Positions 23,767 through 33,112 of a stretch of 64,000 bases of DNA are shown in pieces (position 1 is the first letter of the stretch; every line of letters starts with the position of its first letter). The notes below the pieces were generated by a model. It was not told the DNA's origin, did not search any database, and worked only from the letters and a program-made list of their open reading frames with translations. The position numbers were made by a program, and so were the translations under genes. The stretch is taken from NCBI GenBank assembly GCA_029781115.1, contig JAKOXG010000020.1:1-64000 (forward strand). Direction: 5' to 3'. This DNA is from Candidatus Cloacimonadota bacterium (GTDB taxonomy: Bacteria > Cloacimonadota > Cloacimonadia > Cloacimonadales > Cloacimonadaceae).

Positions 23767-24846
23767 TTACTCATCTTGGTCTCTGTCTGTGCCCGTATCT
23801 TGTCGTTCTATCTTATCTGTTGAGGAGGGAATTGCTTCTGCATTCTGGACTAATTTATCAAAATCACTTTGGTATAAGCCATCCTGGATCACTCTATATT
23901 TTTCAAACTCGCTTTCAGCAAAACTCTTTGCAATCGCAGCAGAAATTCTTCCTTTGTCTTTCAAAATATCTTCTTCGTTGAATTCCAAAAAAACATCCAA
24001 GCGTTTTGCCCAGTCTTCCATAGTCATAGGAATTCTGCGCCTCGCCTGTCTTTCAGCATAATCCAAGTACATCGTGACAATCTGATTCAATTCTTTTATT
24101 TCCGCTTTAGAAAGGTAGTTTTTAGCAATACCAACATCGGCTTTCACGATTTTCCCATTAGGTGCATTCTTCCAGGTAGTAAGTCCCATATGCTCTTTTT
24201 TATGGTCTGCCCGTTGATAAATCAGTTCCGCAGCAGTGTGATGGTGTGTTGCATAGTGAAGCTTGTTTTGAACGGTAGCGAAAAAAACTTGCGATGTTTT
24301 TGCTGTCGGAGAATAATCCACTGCCGTAGAGTAAATATCTGTGATTTTCTGATAGAATCTTCTTTCACTTGCCCTGATTTCTCTGATTTCATCAAGCAAA
24401 TGCTCAAAGTAAGCTTCATCAAATATTTGACCGTTTTCTAAGCGCTGTTTATCTAAAACATATCCCTGGATCGTAAAAGTTCTCAATACTTTTGTGGCCC
24501 ATTGGCGAAATTGAGTGGCCCTAATTGAATTCACTCGATAACCCACAGAAATAATGGCGTCCAAGTTGTAAAACTTCATTTTATACCTTTTCCCATCCGA
24601 AGCAGTTGCCGAGGATTCCTCGGTAACTGAATCCTCTTGTAATTCCCCAGATGCAAAAATGTTTTTCAAATGCAGGCTTATATTGTCCGTAGAGCAGTCA
24701 AACAATTCTGCCATACCTTTTTGAGTAAGCCATATATTCTCATCATGTACCCTAACCTCTATTCCGTCTTCACCCGCTTGTTTTGTGAACACGATGAAGT
24801 CAGTTGTACTGTTTCTAATCTGAATGCCTTTTTTATTATCTTTCAT
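23767..24846 (-). CDS. RhuM family protein
   Basis: The 359-residue product matches the RhuM layout: an N-terminal DNA-binding-like part with VHDENIWLTQKGMAELF and TDNISLHLKNIFASGEL, then YNLDAIISVGYRVNSIRATQFRQWAT, and a long helical C-terminal region. RhuM proteins were first noted in Salmonella pathogenicity island 3. In many genomes they accompany type I restriction loci and mobile islands; their biochemical role is not settled. The ATG at 24846 is preceded by AAAGGAGAG, so the longer frame up to 25110 is rejected. It is transcribed against the helicase gene and away from the DUF3298-like gene. The tail is rich in Asp, Thr and Gln. Confidence 0.85.
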   Translation of the reverse strand: MKDNKKGIQIRNSTTDFIVFTKQAGEDGIEVRVHDENIWLTQKGMAELFDCSTDNISLHLKNIFASGELQEDSVTEESSATASDGKRYKMKFYNLDAIISVGYRVNSIRATQFRQWATKVLRTFTIQGYVLDKQRLENGQIFDEAYFEHLLDEIREIRASERRFYQKITDIYSTAVDYSPTAKTSQVFFATVQNKLHYATHHHTAAELIYQRADHKKEHMGLTTWKNAPNGKIVKADVGIAKNYLSKAEIKELNQIVTMYLDYAERQARRRIPMTMEDWAKRLDVFLEFNEEDILKDKGRISAAIAKSFAESEFEKYRVIQDGLYQSDFDKLVQNAEAIPSSTDKIERQDTGTDRDQDE

Positions 24847-25430
24847 ATACTCTCCTTTTTCATGTGTTGAGTCTCTAATGTTGGTGCAAATTCCAAACGT
24901 TATCCTTCCGCTTCTTTGAGGGCATCTATAATCCCCACTATTCACATCTATGTTCAGTCGATCGACTAGCTGCATAGTCTCTACACTGCTGATAAAAGTC
25001 AAGTGTTTTCTCATTTCAAGCAACCTTGCTACGCTGGGATAAAGTACTTTAAGCGAGACGCGGTCCCTGGAACAGTAGTCCTTGTTATCCAATAGGATGC
25101 CTTGATGCACATAACCTGCTGTGTCAAATACGCTGCCAAGCGGGAAAGTATGAGCGATGGGGAGCTGGCAGCGAGCAGGTAAGTCGCAAATTTATACCCG
25201 CCACCTTGGATAAATTGATGTAACCTCATCATATCCACGTTTTTACTCTTGACACTTTTCCCTCACATATAATCCTTAGCACCGCCTTGTGGATAGCCTA
25301 TTACAGTGCAACATCACAGGCTTACACTCAGCACACATCATCTATCACAAGGAAGCACCATGTTTTTCACACTCTTTACCCAGTCGGCGCAGGTCGACTT
25401 CTTTCAGACCATTACAAAGGAGATCGTAAG
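24847..25430. other. Divergent intergenic region between RhuM and the DUF3298-like gene
   Basis: The 584 bases contain TTGACA (25249) and TATAAT (25268) on the plus strand, but they are only 13 bases apart, so promoter identity is doubtful. Open frames here lack ribosome sites and are not called. No repeat family of the island edges is seen. Confidence 0.4.
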
Positions 25431-26324: not shown

Positions 26325-26987
26325 ATGCATAGCCAAGAAGTTCAGACACTCAAAGGTATAGCTAAAAGAGCGTCAAAAAGATTAAAGAATATGTATAAAA
26401 AACGCAGTAACCCGCCTGCCGGCTTGATGTTTCCCTTATATAGATCAAAAGTAGATGATGACGAACAAAAGTATCGTTTCAGCGAACAGGAAGCACGGGT
26501 TATGTTCATTATTGAGCTGGAAAAAGAAATCCAAGACAAGAATTGTTGTTTTACACACTACTCCATAGAGACACCAACTTTAAACCGCTACTCGGGCTTC
26601 GCACGTAGAAACAACAAGTATGTGGATCCAGAGTATCATGACTGCAACACCGCGGATGGACGCTCCGGATCAATAGATTTGTCTATATATAAATATAAAT
26701 CAGATTCCAAACGTCCATACATCAATGTTGAGTTTAAGCACGGGACATCAGTTCTGCATGAGTTTGAGAAAGACCTTTTAAAGTTATATGCTGAAACCGG
26801 GATTGGAGTTTGGTTCCACATGTTTGCTGGAGATGAGAACACCCGCAAAACGATAAAAGACCGATTGGTACAAGCCAAAGACAATATATTGGAGAGATAT
26901 CCGTTCGATAAAGAGATTCTGGTTTTGATCGTTTCACTGGATCCCTGTAAGTCTAAATCGCGCACCATTGAGAGCTATTTTATATGA
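26325..26987 (+). CDS. Putative PD-(D/E)XK nuclease-fold protein
   Basis: I do not recognise a named family for this 220-residue soluble protein. It shows the spacing expected of a PD-(D/E)XK nuclease core: an N-terminal helix FSEQEARVMFIIELEKEI with an acidic residue, then SIDLSIY with Asp 118, and the strand INVEFKHG with Glu 136 and Lys 138. A following helix (EFEKDLLKLYAETG) and a GVWFHMF strand complete the fold. The N-terminus is very basic. It sits 3 bases behind the membrane-anchored DUF3298-like gene, with GGAG before its ATG. The nuclease call rests on motif spacing only. Confidence 0.55.
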   Translation: MHSQEVQTLKGIAKRASKRLKNMYKKRSNPPAGLMFPLYRSKVDDDEQKYRFSEQEARVMFIIELEKEIQDKNCCFTHYSIETPTLNRYSGFARRNNKYVDPEYHDCNTADGRSGSIDLSIYKYKSDSKRPYINVEFKHGTSVLHEFEKDLLKLYAETGIGVWFHMFAGDENTRKTIKDRLVQAKDNILERYPFDKEILVLIVSLDPCKSKSRTIESYFI

Positions 26988-27763: not shown

Positions 27764-29839
27764 TCAAGGGAAATCGGGCGTAAAATCAGTGATGTATTCC
27801 AGTTGATCCTCAGTCCAAAGCCGGCGTGGTTGGGGTTTGTAGTGTTTCTTTTTCCACCACTCGACTCTCACGTCGATCTTGTCTATTTGCTCTGGGGACA
27901 GTTCTTTGGCGATTTCGTCTTTTTTCGCTATCGCATCTTCAAATTCATTGTCCGCAGCGATGGAAAACCAGAAATATGCCTTTTCCTTGTTTGCCTTGGT
28001 GCCCAAACCGGCCGCGTACATCAGAGCTGTCTGATATTGTGCTTCTACATGATCCGCCCTTGCGGCACCATTAATGTATTCAAATGCTTCTTCATAATCC
28101 TGCTCCACACCCTTGCCATCAAAATACATCATGCCCAGCGCAAACTGCGATTTTTCATCGCTCCAATGATAATAGCCCTGATCAAACCAGTAAAAAGCCG
28201 TGTGATAATTCTGTATCACGCCCTGTCCGTGATAATACATTACTCCCAGCATGTATAGTCCATCTATATAGCGCCGATCTGCGAGTTTCCGATACCATTT
28301 TGCCGCCGTCTTATAATCCTGCTCCACACCATCGCCATAGTAATAGATATTGGCCAGACTGAGCCATGGGCTCGGGTTTCTACTCTCTGCCACCTCAAGA
28401 TAGTATCCTATTGCTTTGGGGACGTCTCTCTCCACGCCCTCACCACGCAAATAGATGTCGCCCAAACGCTGCTTTATAGCTGGATATCCGGCGTTTGCTG
28501 CCTTGGAATAGAGGCTCACACCCTTGGCACCATCCTTCTCCACGCCCAAGCCGTGAAGATACAAATAGCCCAATTTGCACATTCCTAACTCATCTCCCTG
28601 CTCGGCAGCTTTGCGATACCATTTTGCCGCCATCTCATAATCCTGCTCAAAATCCTCGCCATAAAAATACAAATCGCCCAAACTGTTCTGCCCCTCTGCA
28701 TTCCCGGATTCAGCGGCTTTCTCAAACCATTTGGCGGCTTTTTGATAATCCCGAGCCACACTATAGCCATCCAGATACATGCGTGCAATTCTAAGCTGTG
28801 CTTTCACATAGCCGTGCTCAGCAGACATTGTAAACCACTTCATCACTACGGAATCTTCCCTGGACGTGTGGCTCCTAACATTGAGGGAATCGCCCAAAAG
28901 AAACATCGCTTGAGCGTCTCCGGCTTGTGCATCCTTGAAGTATTTTGCCTCATATTCATCAAGTTTCCAGATCTCATCTGTGGCCTCTGGCTCATCTTTA
29001 TACAGTTTTTCCAATTCATGCTTGATATAAGGATCTTTTTCCATGGCCAAGCGATACCACTTTTCTGCCTCAGCAAGATCCTTTGGCACACCCTCTCCAT
29101 TACGATACATTGTGCCCAGCAAGAACTGTGCACCGGCGTTTCCTGCTTCCGCAGCTGTGCGATACCATTTGAGAGTCACATCATAGTCCCGTTCCACATC
29201 TATGCCATCATAATACATCTTGGCCAATTTATCCATCGCATCCTCATCTCCTTGCTCAGCAGCTTTGGTGAGCCATTTTACCGCCTCAGAGGGGTTCTTG
29301 TCCACCAAATATCCTGTTTGATGATTCCAGCCCAAGTGATATTGGGCTTCAGCGACTCCGGCCTCTGCGGCTCTGCGCAGCCAATACATTGCTTCATAGT
29401 CATCCCACTCTCCGCAAAGATGTTTTTCATACAAGGAACTCAAATCCAACATGGCTTTGACATGACCCTGCGCCGCCGCCCGAAGCAACATTTTCTCTGC
29501 TACAGCATAATCCTGGTCTACACCTATGCCCACATAATACATTTTGCCCAAGAGATACTGCCCGTCTGCATTGCCCTGAAGAGTAGCCAAACGTGCCCAC
29601 TTGAGTGCCCCGGAATCACTCTTGACCCCTGCCAAACCACTAAAATAAAACTTTGCCAACATGGCTTGGGCAGTTGCGTTTCCCCTGTTCGCAGCTTTGC
29701 GATACCATTTTGCCGCTTCCTTATAATCCGGCTCTTCCTGACCGTCATCGCAATAGATGGAAGCCAATTCAACCTGAGCCTCCACATCCCCGGCTTTTGC
29801 CTTGGGTAAAAGCTCTGCAATGCGTTGTTCATTTTTCAT
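27764..29839 (-). CDS. Sel1-repeat (TPR-like) protein, about 17 repeats
   Basis: The 691-residue product is almost entirely Sel1-like repeats of about 36 residues (A.WYRKAAEQG.A.AQ..LG.MY..G.GV..D), of which I count about 17, some degenerate such as numbers 4, 8 and 15. Sel1 repeats form curved alpha-solenoids that scaffold protein-protein contacts. There is no signal peptide, so the protein is predicted cytoplasmic. AAGGAGG at 29846-29852 fixes the ATG at 29839. The gene stands alone between two repeat mosaics, next to the ATPase/nuclease operon. Partner unknown; an adaptor role is inference. Confidence 0.88.
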   Translation of the reverse strand: MKNEQRIAELLPKAKAGDVEAQVELASIYCDDGQEEPDYKEAAKWYRKAANRGNATAQAMLAKFYFSGLAGVKSDSGALKWARLATLQGNADGQYLLGKMYYVGIGVDQDYAVAEKMLLRAAAQGHVKAMLDLSSLYEKHLCGEWDDYEAMYWLRRAAEAGVAEAQYHLGWNHQTGYLVDKNPSEAVKWLTKAAEQGDEDAMDKLAKMYYDGIDVERDYDVTLKWYRTAAEAGNAGAQFLLGTMYRNGEGVPKDLAEAEKWYRLAMEKDPYIKHELEKLYKDEPEATDEIWKLDEYEAKYFKDAQAGDAQAMFLLGDSLNVRSHTSREDSVVMKWFTMSAEHGYVKAQLRIARMYLDGYSVARDYQKAAKWFEKAAESGNAEGQNSLGDLYFYGEDFEQDYEMAAKWYRKAAEQGDELGMCKLGYLYLHGLGVEKDGAKGVSLYSKAANAGYPAIKQRLGDIYLRGEGVERDVPKAIGYYLEVAESRNPSPWLSLANIYYYGDGVEQDYKTAAKWYRKLADRRYIDGLYMLGVMYYHGQGVIQNYHTAFYWFDQGYYHWSDEKSQFALGMMYFDGKGVEQDYEEAFEYINGAARADHVEAQYQTALMYAAGLGTKANKEKAYFWFSIAADNEFEDAIAKKDEIAKELSPEQIDKIDVRVEWWKKKHYKPQPRRLWTEDQLEYITDFTPDFP

Positions 29840-29870
29840 AATCTTAACCTCCTTTTGGCCGGTGTGTTTG

Positions 29871-30210
29871 GTTTTAGGTGTTAGGTGTTAGGTGTTAGTC
29901 GCTGCGCTGATTTCGGGAATGAGCGTGATCTTGCTGTTCATGGGTCGCCAATGTTTGTATGCAAGAAAGGAGAGGTTGGGGTTTTTGTCAATAAGGAAGT
30001 AGGGAGTGCCTTCGGCAAGGTGTTAGGTTTTAGGGGTTAGGTGTTAGCGCTGCGCTTTGTTTAGAGATGCGCTTGCTATCTTCGTTGTGCGAGACCGTGT
30101 GAAGCAGCGGCGGTTAGACGACCGCCCGTACAGGGCCGGCGAGCGCCTGCTACCAGGCAGTTGTTAGATGTTAGTCGCTGCGCTTTGTTTAGAGATGCGC
30201 GTGTTATTTG
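29871..30210 (+). repeat. Repeat mosaic between Sel1 gene and ATPase operon, part 1
   Basis: TTAGGTGTTAGG units (29871-29898 and 30019-30047) are each followed by a GTCGCTGCGCTGATTTCGGG or GCGCTTTGTTTAGAGATGCG element. The copy at 30048-30110 continues with GTGCGAGACCGTGTGAAG, as it does upstream of ispG. A third element copy begins at about 30175. No gene is supported here. Confidence 0.75.
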
Positions 30211-30341
30211 ACGGGGATTGGTCGTTAGATCACCTACTGTTTTAACGGGTATTTATTCTTGTGGTTTGCATCGGGAAAAGGAGAGTGAAAATCAATATTT
30301 CACCCGAGAATGTGTTTTTATCACGGGAAACTGCATCTTTT

Positions 30342-30539
30342 GACCCCTCTCAAATCCCGATTTCATGCTGACTCCCAACCCCTTCCCTGCTGCCCTCCTG
30401 CTCCTCGAGTAGCTAAGGAGTAAGAAAGCAGGCAGTTAGGAGGCAGAGCCAAGGGGAGAAAAAAGCACCTTTCGGAGGGTAGTCAATCGGGGCGAAAAGT
30501 CAACCTTTGCACAAACTTCCGTTTTCGGCAAACAAATTA
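30342..30539 (+). repeat. Interspersed ~195-bp repeat, copy 2
   Basis: The stretch aligns with 56728-56922 in the same orientation and with 340-535 inverted. It begins GACCCCTCTCAAATCCCGAT and ends at GGCAAACAAATTA. Between lie the CCCTGCTGCCCTCCTGCTCC and AGGAGTAAGAAAGCAGGC blocks. Copies differ by scattered substitutions and small indels. Confidence 0.8.
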
Positions 30540-30569
30540 TGGTGTAGTTGGGTGTTGTGCCTTTGGCGA

Positions 30570-30730
30570 GGTGTTAGGTTTTGTGCCTGCGGCAAGGTGT
30601 TAGGTTTTAGGGGTTAGGTGTTAGCGCTGACGCTGATGGCTGATATGCGCGTGCTCTGAGCGAAAGCGAGACCAAGGACAACAATAAGAAAGTCCATGGA
30701 TACACACGGATGTGCACGGATGAAAGATGA
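30570..30730 (+). repeat. Repeat mosaic between Sel1 gene and ATPase operon, part 2
   Basis: GGTGTTAGGTTTT units (30570-30624) lead into GCGCTGACGCTGATGGCTG, then ATGCGCGTGCTCTGAGCGAA and a CACACGGATGTGCACGGATG word. The block order is the mirror of that at 27610-27741. Confidence 0.7.
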
Positions 30731-30821
30731 GAATAAAAAGCAGTGGCAAACAACAGGACATCGACGCCTCAACATTGAACTTGGCCGCGATGCCCTCAAA
30801 AGGGAGTTCTCGAATTGGGAC

Positions 30822-30850
30822 TTGACATAATATGTATCCTAAATTATCTT
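30822..30850 (+). promoter_or_regulatory. Promoter of the ATPase/nuclease operon
   Basis: TTGACA (30822-30827), a 17-base spacer and TATCTT (30845-30850), followed by GAG, form the best promoter in the window. Transcription would begin near 30857, leaving a leader of about 43 bases before the ATG at 30900. Confidence 0.6.
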
Positions 30851-30899
30851 GAGCGCTCAAAAGGAAAATAAATATGCACCTTGTAAAAGGGGAGATAAT

Positions 30900-32273
30900 A
30901 TGAAAATCAAAGTCTCTAACCTCGGCCATGTTCAAAGTGCTGAACTCACTTTGGCTAACTTCACCATTGTGTGCGGTGGTAACAATACCGGAAAAACGAA
31001 CCTGTCCTATACGATTGGAGAGTTTTTTAGCTATTGGTGGGAAGATTATGAGCTGGATCTATTTGACATTATTGTTGATCCACTGTTGGAGGTGGGCAAT
31101 GTCTCTATTACTCTCAAAAGTCTCTTAGATAAAAGCCAGGATTTTGTAAATGATGCATGCAAAAGTTACAGCAAGAGGATCAAAAAAGTGCTGTCAACTG
31201 AACAAAACTCCATGGCAGAAATGACGCTGGAAATAGAAATAGAAAAGAAAGACCTGCAGCCCAAGGAAACTTTTAATGTAATTATCGGAAATAAGTGGAA
31301 CACTATTTCAATAGATAAGGATAGCGGTTCAGACAGCATCTCTATCTTTCTTTTGGTTGATAGGAGTTCTGTAGATGATTTTCCCAGGAGCGTGCTTGCA
31401 CATTCTATCAGCGATGCTATCAAGGAAATTATCTTTACCAATACTTTCCCCGAGTCCGCTATGTTACCTGCGGAGCGCACCGGTATAGAGATGTTTCAAA
31501 CGGAGCTTGATTTTGCCAGAAGCAAAGTCTTAGACACACTGAAAGAAGAGGAGGGTGTGGTGGACCCTTTCCTAATTCTGGAGAGAGTGAATAAAGACTA
31601 CGCAATGCCCATTAACAGAGCTGTAGATGCAGTGAGACGAATCGGTAGTACGGTCAAAAATCTGAGTTACATTGCAAAGGAGCATCCCCACATCATTGAG
31701 TCGATGAACCATATCATCGGGGGTGAAGTGCTCTATTCCAATAGAGTGCTTTACTTTATACCCGAAGGCGATGAGCAGGTTAAGCTAACAATCAAGGAAA
31801 GCTCCAGCTCTGTTCGCTCTTTAGTGGATCTCGTCATTTATCTGAGACACCGTGCCCAGAAAGGTGACTTGCTGATGATTGATGAGCCGGAGATAAATCT
31901 ACACCCCGAAAACCAAAGACGATTGACGAGGCTCTTTGCCCAGCTGGTAAACGCCGGAATTAAGGTATATATCACCACCCACAGCGATTATATTGTGAAA
32001 GAGCTAAACAATCTTACTCTGATAGAGTCTTTATCAAACAGAGATAAGGCTAAGATGTTCAAGGAATACGGCTATGCTGAAACGGAGCTAATTTCCAGAA
32101 ATAAATGTGCGGTCTATATTGCTTCAGAGATACTCACAGAAGATAATCGCCGCACGCACCGCTATACCTTCAAAAATGCGAAATATGGGGAGGCTGGTTT
32201 TGAATTAGACAGCTTTGATGATTCTATCAATGAAATGAATGAAATACAAGACTATCTGTTTTATGGTGATTGA
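30900..32273 (+). CDS. ABC-type (OLD/RecF-like) AAA ATPase
   Basis: The 457-residue protein is a RecF/SMC-like ABC ATPase of the kind found in OLD, PtuA and AriA defence proteins. Walker A is GGNNTGKT (26-33), a serine-rich signature SSSSVRSL lies near 305, Walker B LLMIDEPEINLHPE near 323, and the switch histidine ITTHSDYI near 358. There is no C-terminal TOPRIM domain, unlike OLD nucleases, so the nuclease function is probably supplied by the next gene. GGGGAG precedes the ATG at 30900; the frame extends to 30849 without a good site. The gene is AT-rich relative to core genes and driven by the promoter at 30822. Confidence 0.85.
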   Translation: MKIKVSNLGHVQSAELTLANFTIVCGGNNTGKTNLSYTIGEFFSYWWEDYELDLFDIIVDPLLEVGNVSITLKSLLDKSQDFVNDACKSYSKRIKKVLSTEQNSMAEMTLEIEIEKKDLQPKETFNVIIGNKWNTISIDKDSGSDSISIFLLVDRSSVDDFPRSVLAHSISDAIKEIIFTNTFPESAMLPAERTGIEMFQTELDFARSKVLDTLKEEEGVVDPFLILERVNKDYAMPINRAVDAVRRIGSTVKNLSYIAKEHPHIIESMNHIIGGEVLYSNRVLYFIPEGDEQVKLTIKESSSSVRSLVDLVIYLRHRAQKGDLLMIDEPEINLHPENQRRLTRLFAQLVNAGIKVYITTHSDYIVKELNNLTLIESLSNRDKAKMFKEYGYAETELISRNKCAVYIASEILTEDNRRTHRYTFKNAKYGEAGFELDSFDDSINEMNEIQDYLFYGD

Positions 32274-32275
32274 TA

Positions 32276-32905
32276 ATGGAGTATTTACCCATAGTATCTA
32301 AGCTTTTTTCAGATAAAGCAATTGTGGAACCAGAGAAAGGCAAGAGAACATATAAAATCGTTCTGGAAGAAGAAAATGAGAATGCAAGCCTTAAACAGGT
32401 TACAATTGAAGAAATTCCCGAAACGTGCAGGGCTATTAAATTAGATAAATCTAGACCAAGCGGTGGATTTCTAAAGGGAAAAGAGGGTGAGCTAAAAAGA
32501 TGTGACTTTGTGCTGTATATTAATCTTGGGAAAGAGTTATACAGGTATTACATTGAACTAAAATCTAGCAGGCCTAAAAAACAGAAAAAACGGGAGGTTC
32601 AAAAGCAACTTAAGGCTTCTGTCTCCCTGATGAAATACTGTGAGATCTTAGCTGATGATTTCCACCAAGATGAATCTTTGAGAATAGATCGAAGAAACGA
32701 GCGCTTTGTCCTGTACAGAAAGGGAAACATCAAAAGAGCTACCGCTTTTAAGCCATATGATTGGAAGAATAATTCTTACGATGAATATTATGAAATTATA
32801 GTGGCAGATGAATTTGCAACAACTAATTTAGCAAAACTTCTCGCTGATAAACAACAAGGGCCACTTACGCAGGCTCATGAGCGAGAGAGAGAAGAGGAGT
32901 TATAG
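32276..32905 (+). CDS. Putative PD-(D/E)XK nuclease partner of the ATPase
   Basis: This 209-residue protein starts two bases after the ATPase stop. I do not recognise a named family, but it has a clear PD-(D/E)XK-like core: KRCDFVLYINLG with Asp 77, then YYIELKSSRP with Glu 94 and Lys 96, followed by a lysine/glutamine-rich helix (EVQKQLKAS) and a long helical region. The C-terminal half (FVLYRKGNIKRATAF) is basic, and the tail is rich in Glu and Arg. A TTG at 32270 is in frame but inside the ATPase gene, so ATG 32276 is chosen. The nuclease role is inferred from motif spacing and from the pairing with an OLD-like ATPase. Confidence 0.68.
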   Translation: MEYLPIVSKLFSDKAIVEPEKGKRTYKIVLEEENENASLKQVTIEEIPETCRAIKLDKSRPSGGFLKGKEGELKRCDFVLYINLGKELYRYYIELKSSRPKKQKKREVQKQLKASVSLMKYCEILADDFHQDESLRIDRRNERFVLYRKGNIKRATAFKPYDWKNNSYDEYYEIIVADEFATTNLAKLLADKQQGPLTQAHEREREEEL

Positions 32906-33112
32906 AGAGCGTCAGCAATCCTGTTGTAGTGAGCATCGCCAGGTAGTCTGCTTTCAGCGGGAAATAGAAGGGATCTTCCCTCGAATTACACGGACGGTCA
33001 CGGATGAAAGAGGGGAGCAAGGAACACTCGCAATTCCGAAAAAGCCCTGCCCCGATTTCCCACCCGCTTCGCAGCTAAAACCCTCATTCTTGCACCCTTG
33101 GTGATATTTTGG

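Follow-up and report, generated by a model that had tools for sequence, protein, structure and literature searches.

A two-gene ABC-type ATPase and PD-(D/E)XK-type nuclease operon of the PDC-M47 family, a predicted phage-defence system, in a Cloacimonadota genome

The window analyzed here is a stretch of 64,000 nucleotides from a Candidatus Cloacimonadota bacterium (assembly GCA_029781115.1, contig JAKOXG010000020.1, positions 1 to 64,000), and features are on its forward strand unless stated otherwise. Near its middle lie two adjacent genes. Gene A (30900–32273; ATG at 30900, TGA at 32271–32273) encodes a 457-aa OLD/PtuA-type ABC ATPase of the PDC-M47A family, and gene B (32276–32905; ATG at 32276, TAG at 32903–32905) encodes a 209-aa PD-(D/E)XK-type nuclease of the PDC-M47B family. 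The stop codon of gene A and the start codon of gene B are separated by two bases. The gene boundaries, this gap, and the length of B agree with those given in an earlier note on this DNA, which had also proposed that the pair is an AT-rich operon with its own promoter. The promoter (30822–30850) has the arrangement TTGACA-17 nt-TATCTT, scores 10/12 in a consensus scan, and is located 50 nt 5' of the first ATG. Promoter-like sites as a class are not enriched in this region (three found, six expected by shuffling). A second species of the genus has both hexamers unchanged at its orthologous locus, amid diverged flanking non-coding DNA, which makes this site a credible promoter. A Shine-Dalgarno-like AGGGGAG (30888–30894) was recognized in the sequence ahead of gene A, and its GGGAG is kept in the second species. 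The pair is AT-rich, as the earlier note had it, and its composition appears foreign: the GC content is 41.6% in gene A and 37.3% in gene B, whereas the window as a whole has 49.8%. At third codon positions it is 47% and 33%, respectively, compared to 64% for plsX.

Gene A matches the Pfam families AAA_15 (3e-24) and AAA_21, and no match to a TOPRIM domain was found in the products of gene A or gene B by Pfam, PADLOC, and NCBIfam profile searches; the description of A as an OLD/PtuA/AriA-like ATPase without TOPRIM holds. The AlphaFold2 model of A (pLDDT 85.1) has its best fold matches in PtuA of retron I-A/Septu, the heads of Rad50 and SMC, and AriA. The ATPase motifs are intact, with conservation judged over 33 homologues. 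The Walker A motif G26-G-N-N-T-G-K32-T33 (30975–30998) consists mostly of invariant or near-invariant positions. In the ABC-signature-like ESSSSVRS (E300–S307; 31797–31820), S302, S303, and S307 are near-invariant. The Walker B motif and its following residues, LLMIDEPE (31869–31892), include the catalytic E329, which is invariant together with P330 and E331, and the near-invariant D328. The H-loop T359-T360-H361 (31974–31982) has an invariant T360 and a near-invariant H361. In addition, an E192-R193-T-G motif (31473–31484), in which E192, R193, and G195 are invariant, is a candidate counterpart of R182 in WonA, a residue that is essential in that protein (PMC12137116).

For gene B, residues were counted in 74 aligned homologues from other genomes, and 15 viral copies were scored separately. 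D77 (32504–32506), the metal ligand of the PD motif (which reads CD here), is present in 74/74 genome and 15/15 viral homologues. The (D/E)XK motif E94-x-K96 (32555–32563) has E94 in 73 of the 74 genome homologues and K96 in all 74 as well as in all 15 viral copies, of which 12 have Asp and three have Glu at position 94. Two further positions, the acidic E32 (32369–32371; 74/74 genome homologues) and Q111 (32606–32608; 74/74 genome and 15/15 viral), are likewise conserved. Because D77, E94, and K96 are conserved across phyla, their occurrence is not a matter of chance. The AlphaFold2 model of B, built from 68 sequences (plasmid and phage rows were left out of the sequence sets for both structure models), has a pLDDT of 89.7 and a pTM of 0.85. 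In this model, D77 is just ahead of strand 78–84, E94 and K96 close strand 87–96, and helix 102–130, which contains Q111, is followed by strand 142–149. This predicted order of strands and helix is the core topology established for the PD-(D/E)XK superfamily. Conservation and model together back the earlier placement of the three catalytic residues and the assignment of B as a PD-(D/E)XK-type partner.

By sequence, B is a divergent branch, since it has no significant Pfam family in the profile search (PDDEXK_9 has an E-value of 0.24). A PDB sequence search found no homologue, and a fold search of the viral library gave no significant match. Foldseek places mostly PD-(D/E)XK proteins at the top ranks, namely FokI, MUS81-EME1, BamHI, and HamA of Hachiman, none of them at E<=0.001; the best match, FokI (E 0.03, probability 0.63–0.66), is individually not significant. 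The D-x16-(D/E)-x-K spacing of B is shared by FokI. These matches bear on the main rival interpretation of the pair, namely that B is a DNA endonuclease that cuts the phage DNA itself, in the manner of classical restriction, and A is a DNA-scanning ATPase, rather than B being an abortive RNase. That FokI, BamHI, and MUS81 are DNA nucleases, that the spacing is shared with FokI, and that A resembles the DNA-acting heads of Rad50 and SMC all count in its favor.

Regarding family membership, both proteins match PDC-M47 of PADLOC-DB 2.0.0 in the same gene order and at full or near full length. Gene A matches PDC-M47A at 4.1e-140 (residues 1–456 on profile positions 1–459 of 461) and gene B matches PDC-M47B at 3.7e-22 (residues 1–179 on positions 1–176 of 186). 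The matches to PD-T4-4_A (2e-128) and PD-T4-4_B (7.9e-9) are both weaker, and NCBIfam gave no match above its curated cut-offs. In a tree of 48 A proteins, the window protein falls inside a clade of 38 (SH-aLRT 98) with cyanobacterial, proteobacterial, archaeal, and other members, including a cyanobacterial plasmid copy that matches PDC-M47A at 1.5e-231. Within this clade it belongs to a four-row branch (SH-aLRT 99) with two Cloacimonadota proteins and one from a MAG labelled Bacteroidota beside it. This small, Cloacimonadota-centred branch has only about 36–43% A identity to other members. PDC-M47 is a PADLOC candidate family, and the anti-phage role of the window pair is accordingly a predicted one; our literature search found no paper naming PDC-M47.

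PD-T4-4, like the window pair, combines an AAA_15 ATPase with a PD-(D/E)XK nuclease in two genes. It was obtained by functional selection for T4 resistance in E. coli (Vassallo 2022; PMC9519451), and its nuclease has been annotated as PD(D/E)XK (PMC10952713). Enterobacterial plasmid members that match PD-T4-4 (L019/L020) form a separate branch of the A tree and are only about 25–28% (A) and 20% (B) identical to the window proteins. Identification of the window pair as PD-T4-4 itself was rejected on this ground, and the pair is instead filed as a sister of PD-T4-4. The wider group around PDC-M47 takes in PD-T4-4 and, by published comparison, WonAB, an OLD-ABC ATPase and PD-(D/E)xK nuclease pair from the V. 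cholerae WASA-1 prophage that has been dissected experimentally (published in 2025; PMC12137116). The link from the window pair to WonAB runs through PD-T4-4, since the WonAB authors relate their system to it, as well as to an "OLD-ABC ATPase + Novel REase" operon present in 0.96% of bacterial genomes (PMC12137116). The latter operon comes from the ABC-ATPase survey of Krishnan et al., as cited in PMC12137116 and PMC12409358. WonAB has the same architecture and requires its ATPase residues and its nuclease Lys (PMC12137116). Likened by description rather than by sequence alignment, the Lys, Arg, Glu, and His of its ATPase have apparent counterparts in K32, R193, E329, and H361 of A, and the nuclease Lys in K96 of B; WonB (16.1 kDa) is shorter than the 209-aa B.

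Other systems share the ATPase and differ in the partner. Septu and retron I-A PtuAB have the nearest solved ATPase folds to A, but PtuB is an HNH nuclease, whereas the partner in the window is of the PD-(D/E)XK type. PARIS (AriAB), OLD, and Gabija have the AAA_15/OLD-type ATPase domain in common with A, together with a separate or fused TOPRIM nuclease, which was not found in the window pair. A Septu subtype was rejected because there is no HNH match and a PD-(D/E)XK active site is present instead, and a PARIS subtype because there is no TOPRIM partner. The earlier note had presented the PD-(D/E)XK partner as a new effector choice for this class of ATPase and had named mapping to a characterized system as grounds against its proposal. 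The central novelty does not survive, as PD-T4-4 (PMC10952713) and WonAB (PMC12137116) precede it with the same pairing. The pair maps to PDC-M47, with a weaker match to PD-T4-4, and although it is neither a Septu nor a PARIS subtype, the grounds named in the earlier note essentially apply.

The two genes are conserved as a unit well beyond Cloacimonadota. Relatives were gathered through A, since tblastn of B alone against plasmids gave no match. Among 80 genome loci with an A alignment, 79 include the 3' end of A, and in 76 of these B starts between -38 and +23 bases relative to the A stop. A second ORF follows A in all 15 viral loci examined. The same gene pair, which the earlier note had suggested looking for, thus recurs in other genomes. 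Within the phylum, A and B are both present in the same five of 125 genomes, and the PDC-M47A profile matches none of 14 control genomes. In one of these five (G037, C287; L006/L017), A is open and B is interrupted with the D...ExK motif still visible, which suggests a decaying or misassembled copy. A chance pairing, within a degenerate region, of an AAA_15 ATPase with a small ORF unrelated to it could be imagined from the absence of a significant Pfam match for B and from the non-coding repeats in the flanks. However, this explanation has a negligible probability and is already refuted by the conserved adjacency of A and B: the unit including its promoter is kept in two species, and the gene pair occurs across many phyla.

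Copies of the pair occur on plasmids in other organisms, and a copy in a Vibrio P2-like prophage has the repressor gene on one side and the integrase gene on the other. Position 94 of B, a Glu in the window, is Asp in most phage-borne copies. Phyla are intermixed in the A tree, which points to horizontal transfer. The mobility of the pair is marked by its patchy distribution, by the plasmid and prophage copies, and by Ssp neighbours in two relatives, described below. The arrangement of two genes in one operon, the small toxic-type nuclease, the patchy spread, and the plasmid and prophage copies would also suit a plain toxin-antitoxin module that stabilizes a mobile element without phage sensing. 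This possibility appears unlikely, given that A is a large conserved ATPase and that PD-T4-4 was isolated by its T4 resistance (PMC9519451). Furthermore, WonB is toxic only alongside active WonA and not on its own, so that simple sequestration is ruled out for that relative (PMC12137116).

The pair sits between a Sel1-repeat gene and plsX-fabH-fabD-fabG, a housekeeping fatty-acid operon. In the nearest species (G005), the pair occupies the same site, with the locus spanning a contig break, and the unit alignable with the window starts at 30812, just ahead of the promoter, and stops at 32905. Amino acid sequence identity between the two species is 76% for A and 96% for PlsX. Gene B (32276–32905 versus L014 221–823) diverges far faster, at 55% identity, and this low value at the same locus suggests rapid evolution or replacement. 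The pair is absent at plsX in three other species of the genus. Large Sel1-repeat proteins adjoin the pair in both species (window 27764–29839, reverse strand; L128 4849–8025), and several are in tandem in G005. The earlier note was correct that repeat mosaics flank the pair, at 29850–30750 and 32977–33033, and within the window CACGGATGAAAGA is found only at its two sides. These repeats are members of genome-wide intergenic families, with 166 genome matches for GGTGTTAGGTTTTAGG at no more than one mismatch and 63 for ACACGGATGnnCACGGATG at no more than two, compared to none for a reversed control pattern. Their interpretation as cassette borders was ruled out by these copy numbers, and for the same reason they say nothing specific about a cassette or its mobility.

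Defence genes near the pair were also compared. Only one other strong PADLOC match was found near the pair in the window, a 447-aa ORF 6 kb away (23767–25110, reverse strand), residues 94–426 of which match PDC-S05 (2.7e-155) and which appears to encode a RhuM-family protein. This sparse setting, with a housekeeping operon next door, speaks against the defence reading. A 220-aa orphan ORF (26325–26987) with a D-x17-E-x-K pattern (GSIDL...NVEFK) has no match in 49 other family genomes and no Pfam match; judged by this pattern, it could encode another PD-(D/E)XK nuclease. Across the loci, the 105 nearest neighbours of pair copies match 154 PADLOC profiles, compared to 36 for 74 control proteins; these are counts of profiles rather than proteins, many neighbours are housekeeping genes, and the control is one complete related genome, such that the enrichment beside defence genes anticipated by the earlier note is only suggestive.

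In two Cloacimonadota relatives (G007 and G035), the pair is divergent to SspB, SspC, SspD, and SspA, a complete SspBCDA phosphorothioation module. The Ssp families were scored for G007, whose gene order recurs in G035 with near-identical proteins. No large SspE-like ORF was found in the surrounding stretches of these two loci (L126 7199–15920 and L127 6480–15199). On the other side of the pair, G035 has a Mu-type transposase and a TniB-like ATPase. The presence of a DNA-modification module next to the pair adds to the case for direct restriction. In the window genome, however, there is no SspD match, and the pair has no modification gene next to it. One may also speculate that in the Cloacimonadota branch the pair is an exchangeable effector, serving as the restriction arm of SspBCDA in the two relatives and standing alone in the window. 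We regard this as improbable; if true, the effector would be stand-alone as well as modification-guided.

With its ATPase motifs and nuclease active site intact, its predicted folds, its conservation as a unit, and its family membership, the pair is likely a complete anti-phage operon, probably functional and belonging to the PDC-M47 subfamily, in which A senses infection and licenses the nuclease B, and infection is aborted. The plasmid and prophage copies, the SspBCDA module beside the pair in two relatives, and the fast divergence of A and B relative to PlsX also favor this reading. The phage-defence role and operon structure proposed earlier are in this respect supported. The individual steps are carried over from WonAB by analogy. 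A would dimerize through its ATP sites, and the dimer would sense an infection signal while B is held in complex with A. A phage trigger may then drive an ATP cycle in A that, through binding or hydrolysis, activates B, and B would cut nucleic acid such that the infected cell is shut down through translation arrest. In WonAB (AWB73975.1 and AWB73976.1), WonB is predicted to bind the C-terminal region of WonA. Translation stops and chromosomal DNA stays intact in that system, and its authors propose tRNA or rRNA as the WonB target (PMC12137116). This outcome runs against direct DNA restriction, which we consider possible but doubtful, and host RNA (tRNA or rRNA) is a more likely substrate of B than DNA.

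Taken together, the effector pairing is already catalogued, and close kin of the pair are proven phage-defence systems. The findings extend a catalogued, little-studied, and widespread defence family to Cloacimonadota and define a conserved active site in B (E32, D77, E94, K96, and Q111) that is open to mutational tests. The question for the group as a whole concerns the target of the nuclease and the signal sensed by the ATPase, and the window pair provides one more test case.
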